A stretch of DNA of 43,731 bases from NCBI RefSeq assembly GCF_000334915.1, contig NZ_AMSF01000032.1, positions 1 through 43,731 on the forward strand, in the 5' to 3' direction. Numbering within the stretch: position 1 is the stretch's first letter; the number at the start of each line of letters is the position of its first letter. The translations under genes and the position numbers were made by a program. Below are positions 6,634 through 11,899 of this stretch, piece by piece. The notes under the pieces are model-generated. The model searched no databases and had not been told where the DNA came from. It saw only the letters and a list, made by a program, of their open reading frames with translations. The stretch comes from Dyella ginsengisoli LA-4. Its GTDB lineage: Bacteria; Pseudomonadota; Gammaproteobacteria; Xanthomonadales; Rhodanobacteraceae.

Positions 6634-6685
6634 GTGACACCGCCGGAGGGGCTGCGCTAAAACATTTCAAATTTCAGTGAAATGT
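6634..6685 (+). promoter_or_regulatory. Probable promoter and ArsR-type operator of the sulfur operon
   Basis: GTGACA (6634-6639) and TAAAAC (6657-6662) are spaced by 17 bases and could be -35/-10 boxes. Directly at the expected transcription start sits a perfect inverted repeat, ACATTTCA (6662-6669) and TGAAATGT (6678-6685), with an 8-base spacer. A-T-rich dyads of this size at the start site are typical ArsR/SmtB operators. The position implies repression by the regulator encoded immediately downstream. It also overlaps the GTG at 6677, arguing that translation starts later. Confidence 0.6.
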
Positions 6686-6691
6686 GAATTC

Positions 6692-7576
6692 GTGAAGCGC
6701 AAGCCCCCTCCCATGGATCCGCGGGTCGTGGAGACCGCACGACTGCTCAAGGCCCTCGGCAACCCCACGCGATTGCTGGTGCTGTGCCGTCTGTTCCATC
6801 GCGGCGAGGCGTCGGTGGGGGCGCTTGCGGAGGAACTCGGGCTCGGCCTGTCCGCGCTGTCGCAACATCTGTCGCGCATGCGCGAGGAAGGGCTGGTGAG
6901 CCAGCGGCGCCAGGCGCGGCAGCTGTTCTATCGGCTCGACGCCACCGCATCCGCCCAGTTGCCGGCGGTGCTTTCCAGCATCTGCGGTCCGTCCGGACCG
7001 CCTCCCACCGAAGGAGAAGATCCGATGAACAAGACCGTGACTGCCCTGGGTGCCGTGCTCGGCCTGGCTTTCGCCAGCTCCGCCGCACTGGCCGCCGGCA
7101 ACTTCTGGATGACGCCCACCATCCACTCCGCCGGCAAGATGCACGAGCTGCCGCAGGCCTCGTACAAGCCCGACGCCAAGGCCAACTACAAGATCGTGTT
7201 CGGGCTGACCAAGGCCGCCGCCAAGCCGGATGAAGTGAACCCCGGCATCGAGCGCGTGGCGCGCACCGTCAACCTCTACACCTGGGCCGGCGTGCCGCTG
7301 AAGCACCTGCACATCGTCGCCGTGGCGTCCGGTGGGGCCACCGCGATCGCGCTGGACAACGCGCACTATCGCCAGGAGTTCGGCACCGACAACCCGAACC
7401 TGCCGGTGATCGCCGAGCTGCGCAAGGCGGGTGTCGACATCGCGGTCTGCGGGCAGGCGGTCGCCGAGCACAAGTACCCGTACGAAGCCGTCGACAAGAG
7501 CGTCACGCTGGCGCTTTCCGCGCTGACCACGGTCACCGAGCTGCAGCAGAAGGGCTATGCCCTGATGCCGCTCTGA
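6692..7576 (+). CDS. SqrR/BigR-like ArsR regulator continuous in frame with periplasmic DsrE protein
   Basis: One reading frame of about 294 residues (GTG 6692; GTG 6677 and ATG 6713 are alternatives) joins two domains with no stop between. Counting from 6677, residues 13-103 are an ArsR winged helix (LLKALGNPTRLLVLCRLFHR, then LSALSQHLSRMREEGLVSQR). Cys37 and Cys103 are 66 residues apart, the spacing of the persulfide-sensing pair in SqrR (C41/C107) and BigR (C42/C108). A proline-rich linker follows (104-116), then Met117, a hydrophobic signal-like segment and a DsrE domain with Cys258. Homologous regulators normally stop soon after the second cysteine. Either a true fusion is made, with the hydrophobic segment as an anchor, or the regulator stop was lost, or there is a sequence error. 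Confidence 0.72.
   Translation: MKRKPPPMDPRVVETARLLKALGNPTRLLVLCRLFHRGEASVGALAEELGLGLSALSQHLSRMREEGLVSQRRQARQLFYRLDATASAQLPAVLSSICGPSGPPPTEGEDPMNKTVTALGAVLGLAFASSAALAAGNFWMTPTIHSAGKMHELPQASYKPDAKANYKIVFGLTKAAAKPDEVNPGIERVARTVNLYTWAGVPLKHLHIVAVASGGATAIALDNAHYRQEFGTDNPNLPVIAELRKAGVDIAVCGQAVAEHKYPYEAVDKSVTLALSALTTVTELQQKGYALMPL
7025..7576 (+). CDS. DsrE family protein with signal peptide (internal start of the fused frame)
   Basis: ATG 7025 has AAGGAGAAG seven bases upstream, so a separate 183-residue product is likely regardless of the fusion. Residues 1-24 (MNKTVTALGAVLGLAFASSA plus LA/AGN cleavage site) are a clear Sec signal peptide. The mature part is a DsrE/YchN-like fold: YKIVFGLTK, HLHIVAVASGG, and the single cysteine Cys142 in GVDIAVCGQAVAE, the position that carries persulfide in DsrE relatives; it ends in the usual LQQKGYALMPL. 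Periplasmic sulfur trafficking next to thiosulfate dehydrogenase is the likely role. This overlaps the fused entry by design. Confidence 0.82.
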   Translation: MNKTVTALGAVLGLAFASSAALAAGNFWMTPTIHSAGKMHELPQASYKPDAKANYKIVFGLTKAAAKPDEVNPGIERVARTVNLYTWAGVPLKHLHIVAVASGGATAIALDNAHYRQEFGTDNPNLPVIAELRKAGVDIAVCGQAVAEHKYPYEAVDKSVTLALSALTTVTELQQKGYALMPL

Positions 7577-7604: not shown

Positions 7605-8573
7605 ATGAACCGTTCGGCCACCCGCCTCGCGGCGACGTGCGTGCTGGCGCTGCTTGCCCTGGTGACCACCGGGGCGGCAGCTGCCCAGAGCACGGACTAC
7701 CTGCCGCCCTGGAACCCGCCGCCAGCGGGCGGCGTGCACTTCAGCGCCCCGCCGGTCGATGCCATCGCCGACCTGCACGGCGATATCGCCGATCCGCAGC
7801 TCACGGTGTTTTTCGCCGGCAACCAGTTCATGGTCGTGCACGACCTGATGGATGCGTTCCGCGAGGCCTATCCGCAGTACCAGCGCATCTACGTCGAGAC
7901 GCTTCCGCCGGGCATCCTGGCCAGGCAGATCGAGAGCGGTTCGCTGGTGATGGGCAACCTGCGCATCGCGTTGAAGCCGGACATCTATACCGCCGGCAAG
8001 GCGGCCATCGCCGAGCGCCAGAAGGAGCATGGCTGGTTCGCCGAAACGGTCGACTACGTGCGCAACCCGCTGGCGATCCTCGTCGCGAGGGGCAACCCGA
8101 AGCACGTCGAGGGGCTGAAGGACCTGGGCCGGCCCGACGTGCGGGTGAGCATGCCGAACCCGGCCTGGGAGGGCATCGCCCGGCAGATCCAGGCCAGCTA
8201 CCGCAAGGCCGGGGGCGAGGCGCTGGTGACCGCGGTGATGAAGACCAAGGTGGCCGACGGCAGCACCTTCCTCACCCACATCCACCACCGGCAGTCGCCG
8301 TTGCGGGTATTGCAGGGCGAGTCGGACGCGGCGCCCGTGTGGTCCACCGAGGCGTATTTCCAGCAGGAGATCCTGCATCGCCCGGTCGAGACGATCGCGA
8401 TTCCCGCCGACCAGAACTCCATCGCCACCTACACTGCCGCACGCATGAAGGACGCCCCGCACGCGCAGGCTGCGAAGGATTTCCTGCACTTCATGCAGAC
8501 GCCGGCGGCGCAGGCGATCTACCGCAAATACGGTTTCCAGACTGTCGGTGGAGGCGATCATGCGGCGCATTGA
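7605..8573 (+). CDS. Secreted ModA-like substrate-binding protein without transporter partners
   Basis: A 322-residue protein with a signal peptide (cleavage near AAA/QST, about residue 27). The body resembles type II periplasmic binding proteins of the molybdate/extracellular group: LTVFFAGNQFMVVHDLMDAF, LPPGILARQIESGSLVMG, YVRNPLAILVARGNPKHV, and VSMPNPAWEGIARQI. No ABC permease or ATPase gene lies nearby. Histidines cluster in LTHIHHRQSP and at the C-terminus (GGGDHAAH), possibly a metal or heme-related site. It sits inside the thiosulfate operon (28 bases after dsrE, overlapping tsdB by 14 bases), so it may bind a sulfur oxyanion or metal as a chaperone or sensor. Ligand unknown. Confidence 0.8.
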   Translation: MNRSATRLAATCVLALLALVTTGAAAAQSTDYLPPWNPPPAGGVHFSAPPVDAIADLHGDIADPQLTVFFAGNQFMVVHDLMDAFREAYPQYQRIYVETLPPGILARQIESGSLVMGNLRIALKPDIYTAGKAAIAERQKEHGWFAETVDYVRNPLAILVARGNPKHVEGLKDLGRPDVRVSMPNPAWEGIARQIQASYRKAGGEALVTAVMKTKVADGSTFLTHIHHRQSPLRVLQGESDAAPVWSTEAYFQQEILHRPVETIAIPADQNSIATYTAARMKDAPHAQAAKDFLHFMQTPAAQAIYRKYGFQTVGGGDHAAH

Positions 8574-9237
8574 TCATTGGTGCGGATATGCGGTCGCCGC
8601 GGTTGCGCTGTGGCTGGTCGCCATCTCGCCGGCCACCGCACAGGATGCAGCGACCATCGCCACACAGGGCAATGGCAAGGGTGCGGCGCCCTGCCAGACC
8701 TGTCACGCCCCTGACGGCGGCGGCCAGGCGTCCGGGGGTTTTCCGCGGCTGGCCGGGGAGAACGCGGCCTACCTGCAGGCGCAGCTCGAAGCCTTCGCCA
8801 GCGGCACGCGGGACAACCCGGTGATGAAGCTGCAGGCCAGTGCGCTGACCGAGGCGGAACGCAAGGCGCTGGCGATCTACTTCAGCAGGATGCCGGCAGT
8901 CGCCACGCCGGATGCCGCGGGCACCACGCCCTTTGCCGATCCGCAGCACCTCGGCGAGACGCTGGCCACGCGCGGGCGCTGGTCGAAACAGGTGCCCGCC
9001 TGCGTGCAGTGCCATGGCCCGGGCGGCGTGGGCGTGGGAGCGGATTTCCCGCCGCTGGCGGGGCAGTCGGCCAACTATCTGGCGGCGCAGCTCAAGGCCT
9101 TCCGCAGCGGCAGTCGCCACAACGATCCGATGGGTCTGATGCGCAACATCAGCCATTCGCTGAGCGACCAGGACATCGATGCGGTGGCGCACTGGTTCGC
9201 CGCCCAACCGTTTCCGGCGAAGGAGTCCCGTCCATGA
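8560..9237 (+). CDS. tsdB: Diheme cytochrome c4-type electron acceptor, TsdB-like
   Basis: A 225-residue periplasmic cytochrome with a signal peptide ending in ATA/QDA. Two tandem class I cytochrome c domains each hold a heme site: C45-QT-C48-H49 and C148-VQ-C151-H152. The repeated FPRLAGENAAYLQAQLEAF and FPPLAGQSANYLAAQLKAF are the cytochrome c4 hallmark. In other bacteria TsdB, a c4-type diheme protein, accepts electrons from TsdA; the four-base overlap (ATGA) with tsdA fits that. The start at 8560 has GGAGG six bases upstream. It then likely feeds a terminal oxidase. Confidence 0.88.
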   Translation: MRRIDHWCGYAVAAVALWLVAISPATAQDAATIATQGNGKGAAPCQTCHAPDGGGQASGGFPRLAGENAAYLQAQLEAFASGTRDNPVMKLQASALTEAERKALAIYFSRMPAVATPDAAGTTPFADPQHLGETLATRGRWSKQVPACVQCHGPGGVGVGADFPPLAGQSANYLAAQLKAFRSGSRHNDPMGLMRNISHSLSDQDIDAVAHWFAAQPFPAKESRP

Positions 9238-10202
9238 CACCGCGTCATCTGCTCATCGGCCTTTCCGTGCTGGTGCTGGCGGCCTGTTCGCAGGCCGCCC
9301 CGCCGGAAGCTTCCAAGCCAACGCCAGCCGCTGCCGCGCAAGCGACTGGCCCGGCGACCCATGCCCAGGCCGCGGCCGCCGCAAAGGCCAGGCCGGCCGC
9401 GTTCGAACCGCCGCCGGAATCGGCGATTCCTGAGGGGCCGTTCGGCGACGTGGTGCGCGAGGGGCGCGAGATCTTCGTCAACACCGACGTGGCAGCGAAG
9501 GCCTACGTCGGCAACGGCCTGCGCTGTTCCAACTGCCACCTCGATGCCGGACGGCTGGCCAACTCGGCGCCGTTGTGGGGCGCCTATGTGGCCTATCCCG
9601 CCTACCGCGCGAAGAACGGCCATGTGAACACGCTGGGCGAACGCCTGCAGGGCTGTTTCAAGTACAGCATGAACGGCAAGGCGCCCCCGCTGGACTCGAA
9701 GGAGATGGTGGCGCTGGAAACCTATGCGTTCTGGATGGCCAAGGGCGCGCCCACCGGCGAGAAGCTGCCGGGCGCGGGCTATCCGAAGAAGGGCTTCAAG
9801 CCGCCGCAGCCGCCGGACTATGCGCGCGGCGAAGCGGTGTTCAAGGCGCATTGCGCGCTGTGCCACGGTGCCGACGGGCAGGGCCAGCAGGTGGCCGGGC
9901 GCTACGTGTTCCCGCCACTTTGGGGGCCGGACTCGTTCAACTGGGGCGCCGGCATGCACCAGCTCGACAACGCGGCGGCCTTCATCAAGGCCAACATGCC
10001 GTTGAGCCAGGGCGGCACGCTCACCGACCAGGACGCGTGGGACGTGGCGATGTACATGGACGGGCACGAGCGCCCGCAGGATCCGCGCTACAAGGGTGAC
10101 CTGGCGGCCACCCGCAAGGCCTACCACGACACGCCGATGTCGCTGTACGGCACCACGGTGAACGGCCATCTGCTGGGCTCGGCACCGGCCACGCGGAACT
10201 AG
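9234..10202 (+). CDS. tsdA: Thiosulfate dehydrogenase (tetrathionate-forming), lipoprotein form
   Basis: A 322-residue diheme enzyme oxidising two thiosulfates to tetrathionate. The first domain is SoxA-like: heme site C98-SN-C101-H102 in LRCSNCHLDAGR, and Cys141 in ERLQGCFKYSMNG, the position of the cysteine ligand of heme 1 that defines TsdA. The second heme is C207-AL-C210-H211, with Met255 (IKANMPLSQGG) the likely distal ligand. The residue before that methionine is Asn, where the Allochromatium enzyme has the switching lysine. The signal LVLAAC at residues 13-18 is a lipobox, so the enzyme is probably membrane-tethered, followed by an Ala/Pro-rich tether (20-65). Thiosulfate-oxidising Rhodanobacter are known. 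Confidence 0.92.
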   Translation: MTPRHLLIGLSVLVLAACSQAAPPEASKPTPAAAAQATGPATHAQAAAAAKARPAAFEPPPESAIPEGPFGDVVREGREIFVNTDVAAKAYVGNGLRCSNCHLDAGRLANSAPLWGAYVAYPAYRAKNGHVNTLGERLQGCFKYSMNGKAPPLDSKEMVALETYAFWMAKGAPTGEKLPGAGYPKKGFKPPQPPDYARGEAVFKAHCALCHGADGQGQQVAGRYVFPPLWGPDSFNWGAGMHQLDNAAAFIKANMPLSQGGTLTDQDAWDVAMYMDGHERPQDPRYKGDLAATRKAYHDTPMSLYGTTVNGHLLGSAPATRN

Positions 10203-10289: not shown

Positions 10290-11144
10290 ATGGCCGCTCC
10301 GGTAGTGTCGATCGGTCCGCTGGCGTGGTCGCTGGGCACGGTGCTGCTGGTGGCCGGCGTCTTCGTCGCACTGGCGGTGGCGTCGTTCCTGCATCGTCGT
10401 GGCCAGGCCAGGGTGGAGCCGGCGCTGTGGGCGCTGCTCGCGCTTTCGTTGCTGGTCGCGCGGATCGCCTTCGTGGTGCGCTGGTGGCCGCAGTACGCGG
10501 CGTCGCCGCTGTCGATGCTCGATCCCCGCGATGGCGGTTTTTCGCCCCTGGCCGGCGTGGTCGCGCTGGGGCTCGGCGTGCTTGGCCTGATCTGGCGGCG
10601 ACCGATGCTGCGGCTGCCGCTGACGGCCTCGCTGGCAGGCGGCCTGCTGGTCTGGGGCTTCGGCCTGCTCGTCGCGGACCGGCTGGACGCCGCCATGCAC
10701 ACGCCGCTGCCGGCACTCACCCTGCGCGATCTGGACGACCGTCCGGTGGACCTGCGCGCCTTTGCGGGCAAGCCGGTGGTGGTCAATCTGTGGGCGACAT
10801 GGTGCCCGCCGTGCCGGCGCGAACTGCCGGTGCTGATCCGCGCACAGCAGGTGGACCGGCAGGTGCACTTCGTGTTCGTCGACCAGGGCGAATCCGCGGC
10901 CGAGGTGCGCGCCTATCTCGCGGCGAGCGGGTTGCGCGCAGACCACATGCTGGTCGATCCGGCCCAGTCGCTGGCGCAGCAGATGAACGCCCGGGTGTTC
11001 CCGACCACGTTGTTCTTCGATGCCGGCGGCGTTTTGCGTAGCATGCATGTAGGAGCGCTGTCGCCGGCCACCCTGGCCGCCGAGATGCGGCTCATTCTGT
11101 CCGGTGCCCCGTCGGCGCCGATCCACGCTGGAGTAACCCGATGA
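10290..11144 (+). CDS. Membrane-anchored TlpA/DsbE-like thiol-disulfide reductase
   Basis: A 284-residue protein from ATG 10290 (AGGA about eight bases upstream; GTG 10257 and 10260 are in-frame alternatives). Four hydrophobic helices occupy roughly residues 11-34, 46-66, 86-103 and 113-130; a thioredoxin domain follows (135-270) with active site W-C172-PP-C175 in NLWATWCPPCRREL and the cis-proline in RVFPTTLFF. The periplasmic thioredoxin domain probably keeps cysteines of the cytochromes or the sulfur carrier reduced, as TlpA/CcmG proteins do. The multi-helix N-terminus is longer than a standard CcmG anchor and resembles the LGT-like anchors seen in some TlpA proteins. Confidence 0.87.
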   Translation: MAAPVVSIGPLAWSLGTVLLVAGVFVALAVASFLHRRGQARVEPALWALLALSLLVARIAFVVRWWPQYAASPLSMLDPRDGGFSPLAGVVALGLGVLGLIWRRPMLRLPLTASLAGGLLVWGFGLLVADRLDAAMHTPLPALTLRDLDDRPVDLRAFAGKPVVVNLWATWCPPCRRELPVLIRAQQVDRQVHFVFVDQGESAAEVRAYLAASGLRADHMLVDPAQSLAQQMNARVFPTTLFFDAGGVLRSMHVGALSPATLAAEMRLILSGAPSAPIHAGVTR

Positions 11145-11899
11145 AGTTTCATTTGCTGGGCCTGGCCCTGCTGCTGAGTGCCTGTGCCCAGGCGCAGGAT
11201 GCGCCCAAGTACCCGGCGCCGGTGCAGGCGTTGCAGCAGAAGGTGGGCCTGGAGATCAAGGGCAGCCTGCCGGCCCCCGATGGCTACCGCGCCTATCTGG
11301 CGAGCTACCGCGGCCATCTGGTGCCGCTTTACGTGCCGCCGGACGGCAAGCATGCCTTCGTCGGCGAGATGTTCGACGAGAACGGGCACGACCTCACCCA
11401 GGCACCGATGGCCGAAGCCAGCCGGCCCGTGTTCGATGCCGGTACCTGGAACAGCCTGGAGAAGTCGACCTGGATCGCCGAGGGCTCGCCGAAGGCGTCG
11501 CGCATCGTCTACGTGTTCAACGACACCGAGTGCCCGTACTGCCATCACCTGTGGGCGGCGATCCAGCCGAAGCTGGCCAAGGGTGACGTGCAGGTGCGCT
11601 ACGTGATGGTCGCGGTGATCGCGCCGAAGAGCGAGCCGCGCGCCGCCGCCGTGCTGGACGCGTCCGATCCGGCCGCCACCCTGCGCCAGCACGAGCAGCA
11701 CTTCGGCAACAGTCCGGTGCAGCCGTTGGCGAAGGTCTCCGCGGCGACGGCGAAGAAGCTGGATGACAACGCGGCGCTGATGGACCAGCTGGGCGTCACC
11801 GGCACGCCCGCGGTGATCTACAAGGATGCCGACGGCAAGATCCGCATGGCCGACGGCATGCCGCCGCCGGACATGCTGGACGCGATCTTCGGCAAGTAA
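11141..11899 (+). CDS. dsbG: DsbC/DsbG-like thiol:disulfide interchange protein
   Basis: A 252-residue secreted protein (lipobox-like LLLSACAQAQ, C15). A DsbC-type dimerisation region (residues 20-100) precedes a thioredoxin fold with C131-PY-C134 in VFNDTECPYCHHLW, the CPYC variant typical of DsbG, and the cis-Pro at 223 in LGVTGTPAVIYKDADGK. It overlaps the previous gene by four bases (ATGA) and ends the operon before a strong terminator. In this setting it may protect or repair the TsdA cysteine ligand or the DsrE cysteine; that is inference. Confidence 0.88.
   Translation: MKFHLLGLALLLSACAQAQDAPKYPAPVQALQQKVGLEIKGSLPAPDGYRAYLASYRGHLVPLYVPPDGKHAFVGEMFDENGHDLTQAPMAEASRPVFDAGTWNSLEKSTWIAEGSPKASRIVYVFNDTECPYCHHLWAAIQPKLAKGDVQVRYVMVAVIAPKSEPRAAAVLDASDPAATLRQHEQHFGNSPVQPLAKVSAATAKKLDDNAALMDQLGVTGTPAVIYKDADGKIRMADGMPPPDMLDAIFGK

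Follow-up and report, generated by a model that had tools for sequence, protein, structure and literature searches.

An ArsR-DsrE fusion gene with features of a persulfide-type regulator in Dyella ginsengisoli LA-4 and other Rhodanobacteraceae

The fusion gene and its neighbourhood

The window (i.e., the whole stretch of DNA that was analysed: 43,731 nucleotides from Dyella ginsengisoli LA-4) contains, on the forward strand at 6677-7576, a single open frame of 299 residues in which two domains can be distinguished: (i) an ArsR domain, matched by the Pfam model HTH_5 at residues 29-75 (41.3 bits versus a cut-off of 22); and (ii) a DsrE domain, matched by Pfam at residues 172-297 (38.8 bits versus a cut-off of 22.7). 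There are zero stops in the stretch between them, as had been proposed in an earlier sequence-only reading that described one frame leading from an ArsR regulator into a DsrE protein with a signal peptide. Translation probably starts at the GTG codon at 6692, and not at 6677, since the column of this codon is occupied by ATG, GTG or TTG in all 10 homologues and a palindrome takes up positions 6662-6685. The predicted product has 294 residues. The features of the gene are the following:

6662..6685, no strand: perfect inverted repeat ACATTTCA-N8-TGAAATGT, probable ArsR operator, directly ahead of the start codon
6692..7576, forward strand: ArsR-DsrE fusion gene with a probable GTG start and 294 residues (HTH_5 and DsrE; NTG at the start column in 10 of 10 homologues)
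6692..6985, forward strand: ArsR winged-helix domain up to Cys98 (best solved relatives: YgaV, 3cuo, and BigR, 3pqj)
6785-6787, forward strand: codon of Cys32, at a spacing of 66 to Cys98 in 10 of 10 homologues
6983-6985, forward strand: codon of Cys98, at a spacing of 66 from Cys32 in 10 of 10 homologues
6986..7024, forward strand: proline-rich, stop-free linker of 13 codons, its frame kept in all homologues
7010..7016, forward strand: GAAGGAG, putative ribosome-binding site of the internal ATG (five of six AGGAGG matches, together with the ATG, in 8 of 10 homologues)
7025..7093, forward strand: segment MNKTVTALGAVLGLAFASSAALA, which opens with the internal start and resembles a signal peptide (cleavage site of small residues in 8 of 10 homologues)
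7094..7573, forward strand: DsrE domain (Pfam), with a single cysteine, Cys253, at 7448-7450

The whole fused chain has only three cysteines (residues 32, 98 and 253 in the 294-residue numbering), the third of which is that of the DsrE domain, and all three are kept in the 10 homologues. The first two, Cys37 and Cys103 in the 299-residue numbering, had been taken for a pair of the SqrR/BigR type, and their spacing of 66 is indeed constant. The switch of BigR is reported to consist of Cys42 and Cys108, likewise 66 apart (PMC5823870), and both cysteines of the fused ArsR align with them, the alignment in between having a single gap and a single inserted residue. The DsrE domain does have one cysteine, as had been claimed. 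All of the 87 DsrE domains that were aligned (10 fused, 77 unfused) share this residue. Similarly, the internal start at 7025 has the good ribosome site attributed to it, the 3' end of AGGAG lying 8 bases ahead of the ATG. The window gave no match in an Rfam search, and the DsrE domain, compared as a single sequence with solved structures up to an E value of 1, gave none either.

The palindrome at 6662-6685 has no mismatches and is the sole match in the window at up to 3 mismatches, where 0.03 were expected. In the source genome, its 12-base core, at up to 1 mismatch, is found nowhere besides 6662-6685 and the overlapping 6671-6690; a reversed control pattern also gives one match per strand. 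As to the homologues, for which 45 bases upstream were scanned, the core CATTTCA-N8-TGAAATG occurs (i) without mismatches in four members of the source genus; (ii) with 3 mismatches, in differing registers, in the genomes G125, G171, G187 and G198; and (iii) with 4 mismatches in G186 and 5 in G164. At that place, G171 and G164 each carry their own perfect palindrome, with arms of 8 and 9 bases, respectively. Within 3 mismatches, the core is absent from all 52 stretches (up to 340 bases) upstream of unfused dsrE genes. Taken together, these data suggest that the palindrome is probably the operator of the ArsR domain. No consensus sigma-70 promoter was found between 6400 and 7700. The reported binding site of BigR is the -10 region of the operon to which its own gene belongs (PMC5823870).

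The fusion gene is followed, on the same strand, by these genes:

7605..8573, forward strand: ModA/CysP-like solute-binding protein, the next gene (SBP_bac_11, 158.5 bits)
8560..9237, forward strand: diheme cytochrome c (start chosen by us; open frame from 8548)
9228..10202, forward strand: SoxA/TsdA-like cytochrome c (SoxA-TsdA_cyt-c, 46 bits, cut-off 27; start chosen by us, open frame from 9009)
10293..11144, forward strand: TlpA/ResA-like thioredoxin-fold protein (start chosen by us; open frame from 10257)
11141..11899, forward strand: thiol-disulfide protein DsbG (269.6 bits, cut-off 124)

Against the SoxA model, the cytochrome at 9228..10202 scores 62.7 bits, under the cut-off of 110. Regarding the 10 fusion loci (the window and nine relatives), DsbG lies downstream of the fusion in all of them, cytochromes are found in seven, the solute-binding gene in eight (with a partial match only in G171), and a TlpA match in eight (partial in G186). 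The 17 unfused loci of the family that were examined, some of which are short stretches, include DsbG in two (L079 and L126) and the solute-binding gene in 15. In the window, the solute-binding gene stands between the DsrE and cytochrome c genes, and no adjoining ABC transporter gene was noticed; a solute-binding gene is also found by DsrE on Acetobacter and Paraburkholderia plasmids. The G171 cluster keeps TlpA and DsbG, has a solute-binding match to residues 24-210 of 322, and shows no cytochrome match.

Plasmid-borne relatives of the DsrE domain adjoin genes for a cbb3-type oxidase, YeeE/YedE, a FAD/NAD(P) oxidoreductase, Blh, TauE or DsbG, the relative on a Chimaeribacter plasmid being without such a set. 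On a Pantoea agglomerans plasmid (L149), a relative of DsrE is surrounded by blh, TauE, YeeE/DUF6691, FAD/NAD(P) oxidoreductase, DsbD and DsbG genes, which, by gene content, is a plasmid-borne sulfide-handling cluster. In general terms, and judging from the neighbouring genes, the setting of these DsrE proteins is in the main one of sulfane sulfur.

This setting bears on the signal to which the ArsR half might respond. The general NCBIfam metalloregulator model matches this half with 78.4 bits, over its cut-off of 55, as would be expected if it sensed metals or metalloids in the manner of ArsR/SmtB proteins. Nevertheless, the cysteines occupy the positions typical of sensors of reactive sulfur species (RSS), 66 residues apart, the closest solved relatives are YgaV and BigR, and the gene cluster is of sulfur type, so that a metal sensor in place of a sulfur sensor appears very improbable. 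On the other hand, the fused ArsR stays below the threshold for BigR proper, scoring 69 bits in the NCBIfam equivalog model NF040642, compared with a cut-off of 155.

Distribution of the fusion and its unfused relatives

The sequence-only reading had called for a search of related genomes. A profile search in which the best 10 candidates per genome were scored revealed the fusion (i.e., both halves joined in a single stop-free frame) in 10 of 233 Rhodanobacteraceae genomes. They are spread over 4 of 26 genera, with four genomes each in the source genus (g1) and in g18 and one each in g5 and g12. HTH_5 and DsrE were both found by Pfam in the 10 homologues, whose start falls at the same column. 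At an E value of 1e-25, 90 genomes of the family had a match, and in the 80 besides the fusions it covers essentially one half. The fusion records include Dyella lutea and Rhodanobacter glycinis S10, both of which are Rhodanobacteraceae, as well as a Lysobacterales metagenome-assembled genome. Outside the family, no fusion was found among the best 6 candidates per genome in 369 genomes of the class, 398 of the order and 398 of the phylum, these samples overlapping one another. With 6 or 10 candidates scored per genome, rare or diverged fusions may escape. In the plasmid collection, none of the 117 matching records has one place that spans 80% of the fusion.

A stop codon between the second cysteine and the internal methionine in close relatives had been named as the finding that would speak against a fusion, and none of the 10 genomes has one. 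Likewise, an error of sequencing or assembly at the join, put forward as a simpler explanation, is ruled out, its probability being practically negligible. Nothing was found in its favour, and the same kind of join is present in 10 separate species genomes, those of D. lutea and R. glycinis S10 among them.

Among 42 rows, the ArsR halves of all 10 fusions group as a single clade (support values 96/98; recovered in 94% of 200 bootstrap trees). Many forks of this tree are open, and its bootstrap had not settled. The nearest row to this clade is a Kluyvera ArsR (85/84, on a long branch), followed by a rhodanese-type membrane protein; we take the two to be a YgaV-YgaP-like pair. The DsrE tree (66 rows) requires three label changes, and well-supported branches make at least two of these unavoidable. 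The branch of G164 is very long (2.48 changes per column), and G187 and G198 are placed without resolution among unfused relatives. These trees point to a single origin for the ArsR half of all fusions; the DsrE half does not establish the same for the whole gene.

Unfused DsrE proteins of Rhodanobacteraceae and of Acetobacter and Paraburkholderia plasmids are mostly 54-71% identical to the fused DsrE. An ArsR of the fusion kind within 1.5 kb upstream and on the same strand was found for none of 86 distinct unfused DsrE frames, which come from fetched loci of the family (a subset of its matches) and beyond, within the length of each stretch; 85 of them have at least 400 bases upstream. It follows that, among the loci sampled, wherever an ArsR of this kind stands immediately before DsrE the two are fused, which argues against a recent loss of the stop codon in one strain. 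A separate ArsR of the fusion kind in the same region as an unfused DsrE exists once (L079), about 5.9 kb downstream and on the same strand. Several tblastn rows with internal stops (e.g., G111, G115 and G212) are loci without an upstream ArsR. In G230, an ArsR row ending in TGA looks like a free ArsR, and no DsrE was seen by eye after it in the translated stretch.

Other copies of both domains were observed. The source genome has a distant DsrE paralogue (contig C27, 16273-16815; 38% identity) and a second, free ArsR (L003, 1384-1800) whose cysteine pair (ILCLL and IYCAP) is similar, adjoining a regulator that we label as Crp/Fnr-like. In G109, there is a tandem pair of DsrE copies (contig C36, 134208-136122).

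Linker, signal segment and two natural variants

The sequence-only reading had also asked whether the linker is conserved. The internal methionine lies 14 codons past the second cysteine in six homologues and 15 codons past it in G187 and G198, always in frame; G186 and G164 have no methionine there. Between the pairs where it is defined, the pN/pS of the linker is about 0.4-1.4. Judged by these ratios, the linker is loosely constrained, yet its frame is kept.

How much weight an open frame carries can be estimated from its composition and by simulation. Random 12-codon stretches with the composition of the linker are stop-free in about 72% of cases, and in about 24% when the frame is allowed for. 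In neutral simulations along a third-position tree of nine homologues (substitutions without indels), 56 of 300 runs stay stop-free for a 12-codon linker; when only the 8 codons that lie outside the ribosome site are counted, 107 of 300 do. Since 19-36% of the neutral simulations are also stop-free, the open linker was discarded as proof of a fusion. The case for a fusion rests on the conserved join and on two relatives without the features needed for separate secretion of DsrE.

These two relatives are G186 and G164. The other eight homologues keep the internal ATG, the ribosome site and a helix like that of a signal peptide, together with a cleavage site of small residues (A-X-A or V-R-A, in positions placed by eye). 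In these eight, two products from one gene are likely, in agreement with what had been proposed for the gene in the window. The most hydrophobic 12 residues of the segment have a median hydropathy (KD12) of 2.21 in the fused proteins (n=10) and 2.46 in the unfused ones (n=52); the fused ones are thus less hydrophobic (Mann-Whitney p 0.0003, a value which is not a true probability, as the rows are related to each other). In the R. glycinis fusion, the n-region has neither Lys nor Arg. It is plausible that free DsrE is exported in 8 of 10, perhaps less efficiently.

G186 (a draft genome, 99% complete and with 4% contamination; the fusion contig has 18.5 kb) has no internal ATG; past the second cysteine, no ATG, GTG or TTG stands in frame before a TTG at a distance of 54 codons. 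Furthermore, it has Asp at position -1 of the cleavage site and another Asp inside the hydrophobic stretch. Its DsrE domain has a pN/pS of 0.21 versus G187 (39.7 differences at 351 nonsynonymous sites and 66.3 at 126 synonymous ones), 0.32 versus G125 and 0.39 versus the window; on these ratios, it is under purifying selection despite the lost route of separate secretion. The pN/pS of its ArsR domain (0.40-0.50) is above that of most other pairs. The fusion of G186 adjoins a partial TlpA match and DsbG, and another contig of this genome carries a DsrE with a signal-peptide-like start together with solute-binding protein and cytochrome genes.

The fusion of G164 lacks both signal peptide and cleavage site, and it is followed directly by the TlpA and DsbG genes, the first of which, in its longest frame, has a start that overlaps the stop of the fusion. 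There are in-frame ATG and GTG codons past the second cysteine, so that G164 may produce a free but unexported DsrE. Being very diverged, this DsrE may work differently from the others.

A simpler rival to a functional fusion, raised from the outset, is that of two working proteins between which a stop was merely lost: the ArsR would carry an unwanted tail, DsrE would be made from the internal ATG, and the fused form would have no function. This would account for the strong internal ribosome site, ATG and cleavage site kept in 8 of 10 and for the loose evolution of the linker, whose open frame is not improbable in the simulations. What it leaves unexplained is the absence of unfused ArsR-DsrE neighbours (0 of 86 in the fetched loci) and the fact that G186 and G164, without the features for separate secretion, keep DsrE in frame, in the former under purifying selection. 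All in all, a mere loss of the stop codon is rather unlikely. The G186 and G164 lineages match what a functional fusion, and not a mere lost stop, would predict, and are the best evidence for the former.

The same two lineages bear on a second rival, namely a membrane-tethered one-component regulator in which ArsR stays in the cytoplasm, DsrE lies in the periplasm, and the internal signal sequence anchors the chain and signals the periplasmic sulfur state. A signal-peptide-like helix, part of the transmembrane topology that had been suggested, is kept in eight homologues, and the neighbouring genes look like those of periplasmic thiol and cytochrome proteins. But the helix is short and its cleavage site intact, hence DsrE may simply be cut off; no known mechanism would take the signal to Cys32 and Cys98 here; and the fusion is kept in G186, where the helix is altered by Asp, and in G164, where it is absent. 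Because G186 (in part) and G164 (wholly) have lost the export features and keep the fused DsrE, tethering is not the mechanism of all homologues. Such tethering is possible but not conserved, and as the main explanation it is unlikely. As far as sequence features allow a prediction, the full-length chain should be cytoplasmic in G164 and is probably so in G186; for the remaining eight, a cytoplasmic chain, one held at the membrane and one cut by signal peptidase are all conceivable.

Comparison with known systems and proposed mechanism

The fused ArsR resembles SqrR, BigR and YgaV in (i) its predicted winged-helix fold; (ii) a likely operator by its own start; and (iii) a sulfur-handling gene cluster (DsrE, SoxA-like cytochrome, TlpA-like protein, DsbG). 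But while the solved proteins of this type are free chains of 99 to 111 residues, here a 294-residue frame runs into DsrE. RSS sensors are described as one cluster of ArsR proteins, with genes near sulfurtransferase or rhodanese genes (PMC10509353). In the YgaV-YgaP operon, the RSS-type ArsR has the rhodanese-like YgaP as sulfurtransferase-type partner (PMC9774250), and in the bigR-blh-tauE operon the partner is Blh (PMC5823870). In both operons the partner is a separate protein, whereas in the present gene it is DsrE and part of the regulator itself.

The locus also resembles the clusters of DsrE, solute-binding protein and cytochromes, since a solute-binding protein and c cytochromes are present in most of the loci examined; the DsrE proteins fetched from those clusters differ in that they have no ArsR half and that their signal peptides are, overall, more hydrophobic. 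Fusions of ArsR with rhodanese exist. If tethered, the protein would be comparable to CadC and ToxR (a cytoplasmic DNA-binding domain, one helix and an outer domain), from which it differs in that the tethering features are missing in 2 of 10 homologues and that tethering is here only possible. A term search found no ArsR in the main text of a survey of transmembrane regulators (PMC10269533). ArsR sensors of this type, DsrE proteins and one-component membrane regulators are already known, and their joining was not found described: as the sequence-only reading had supposed, no ArsR-DsrE fusion of this kind was encountered in the open-access literature that was searched.

With moderate confidence, we consider the gene to be a true ArsR-DsrE fusion that codes for a self-regulating repressor of persulfide type with a built-in domain of sulfur-carrier type, placed at the head of an operon for periplasmic thiol and cytochrome proteins, and that has, in 8 of 10 homologues, an internal start for secreted DsrE. 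In such a mechanism, the ArsR half, as a persulfide-type repressor, would bind the palindrome at 6662-6685 and shut its own operon, presumably one transcript with the fusion, the solute-binding protein, the two c cytochromes, the TlpA-like protein and DsbG. As there is no stop between the halves, every ArsR made carries, barring cleavage, the linker, the helix and DsrE. Cys253 of DsrE would probably take up sulfane sulfur and feed or tune the Cys32-Cys98 pair; sulfane sulfur would then bridge Cys32 and Cys98, with release of the DNA as the expected outcome. In the eight homologues with an internal ribosome site and ATG, including the one in the window, free DsrE with its own signal peptide would also be produced, in larger amounts upon derepression of the operon.

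A more elaborate version of the gene, with nested starts, would combine a membrane-held ArsR, whose outer DsrE reads periplasmic sulfane sulfur, with a secreted DsrE acting as twin and competitor at once, and would have turned twice, within the family, into a purely cytoplasmic two-domain sensor. We regard this version as speculative and rather improbable.

To our knowledge, it is an open question whether sulfur is supplied to persulfide repressors by free small molecules or by protein carriers. A repressor joined to a domain of sulfur-carrier type makes the protein-to-protein delivery of sulfur to an ArsR sensor directly testable, and the natural variants with or without the secreted form aid such testing. 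In addition, if the proposed reading is true, this gene would be a case of one frame that codes for a regulator as well as for an exported protein translated from an internal start.
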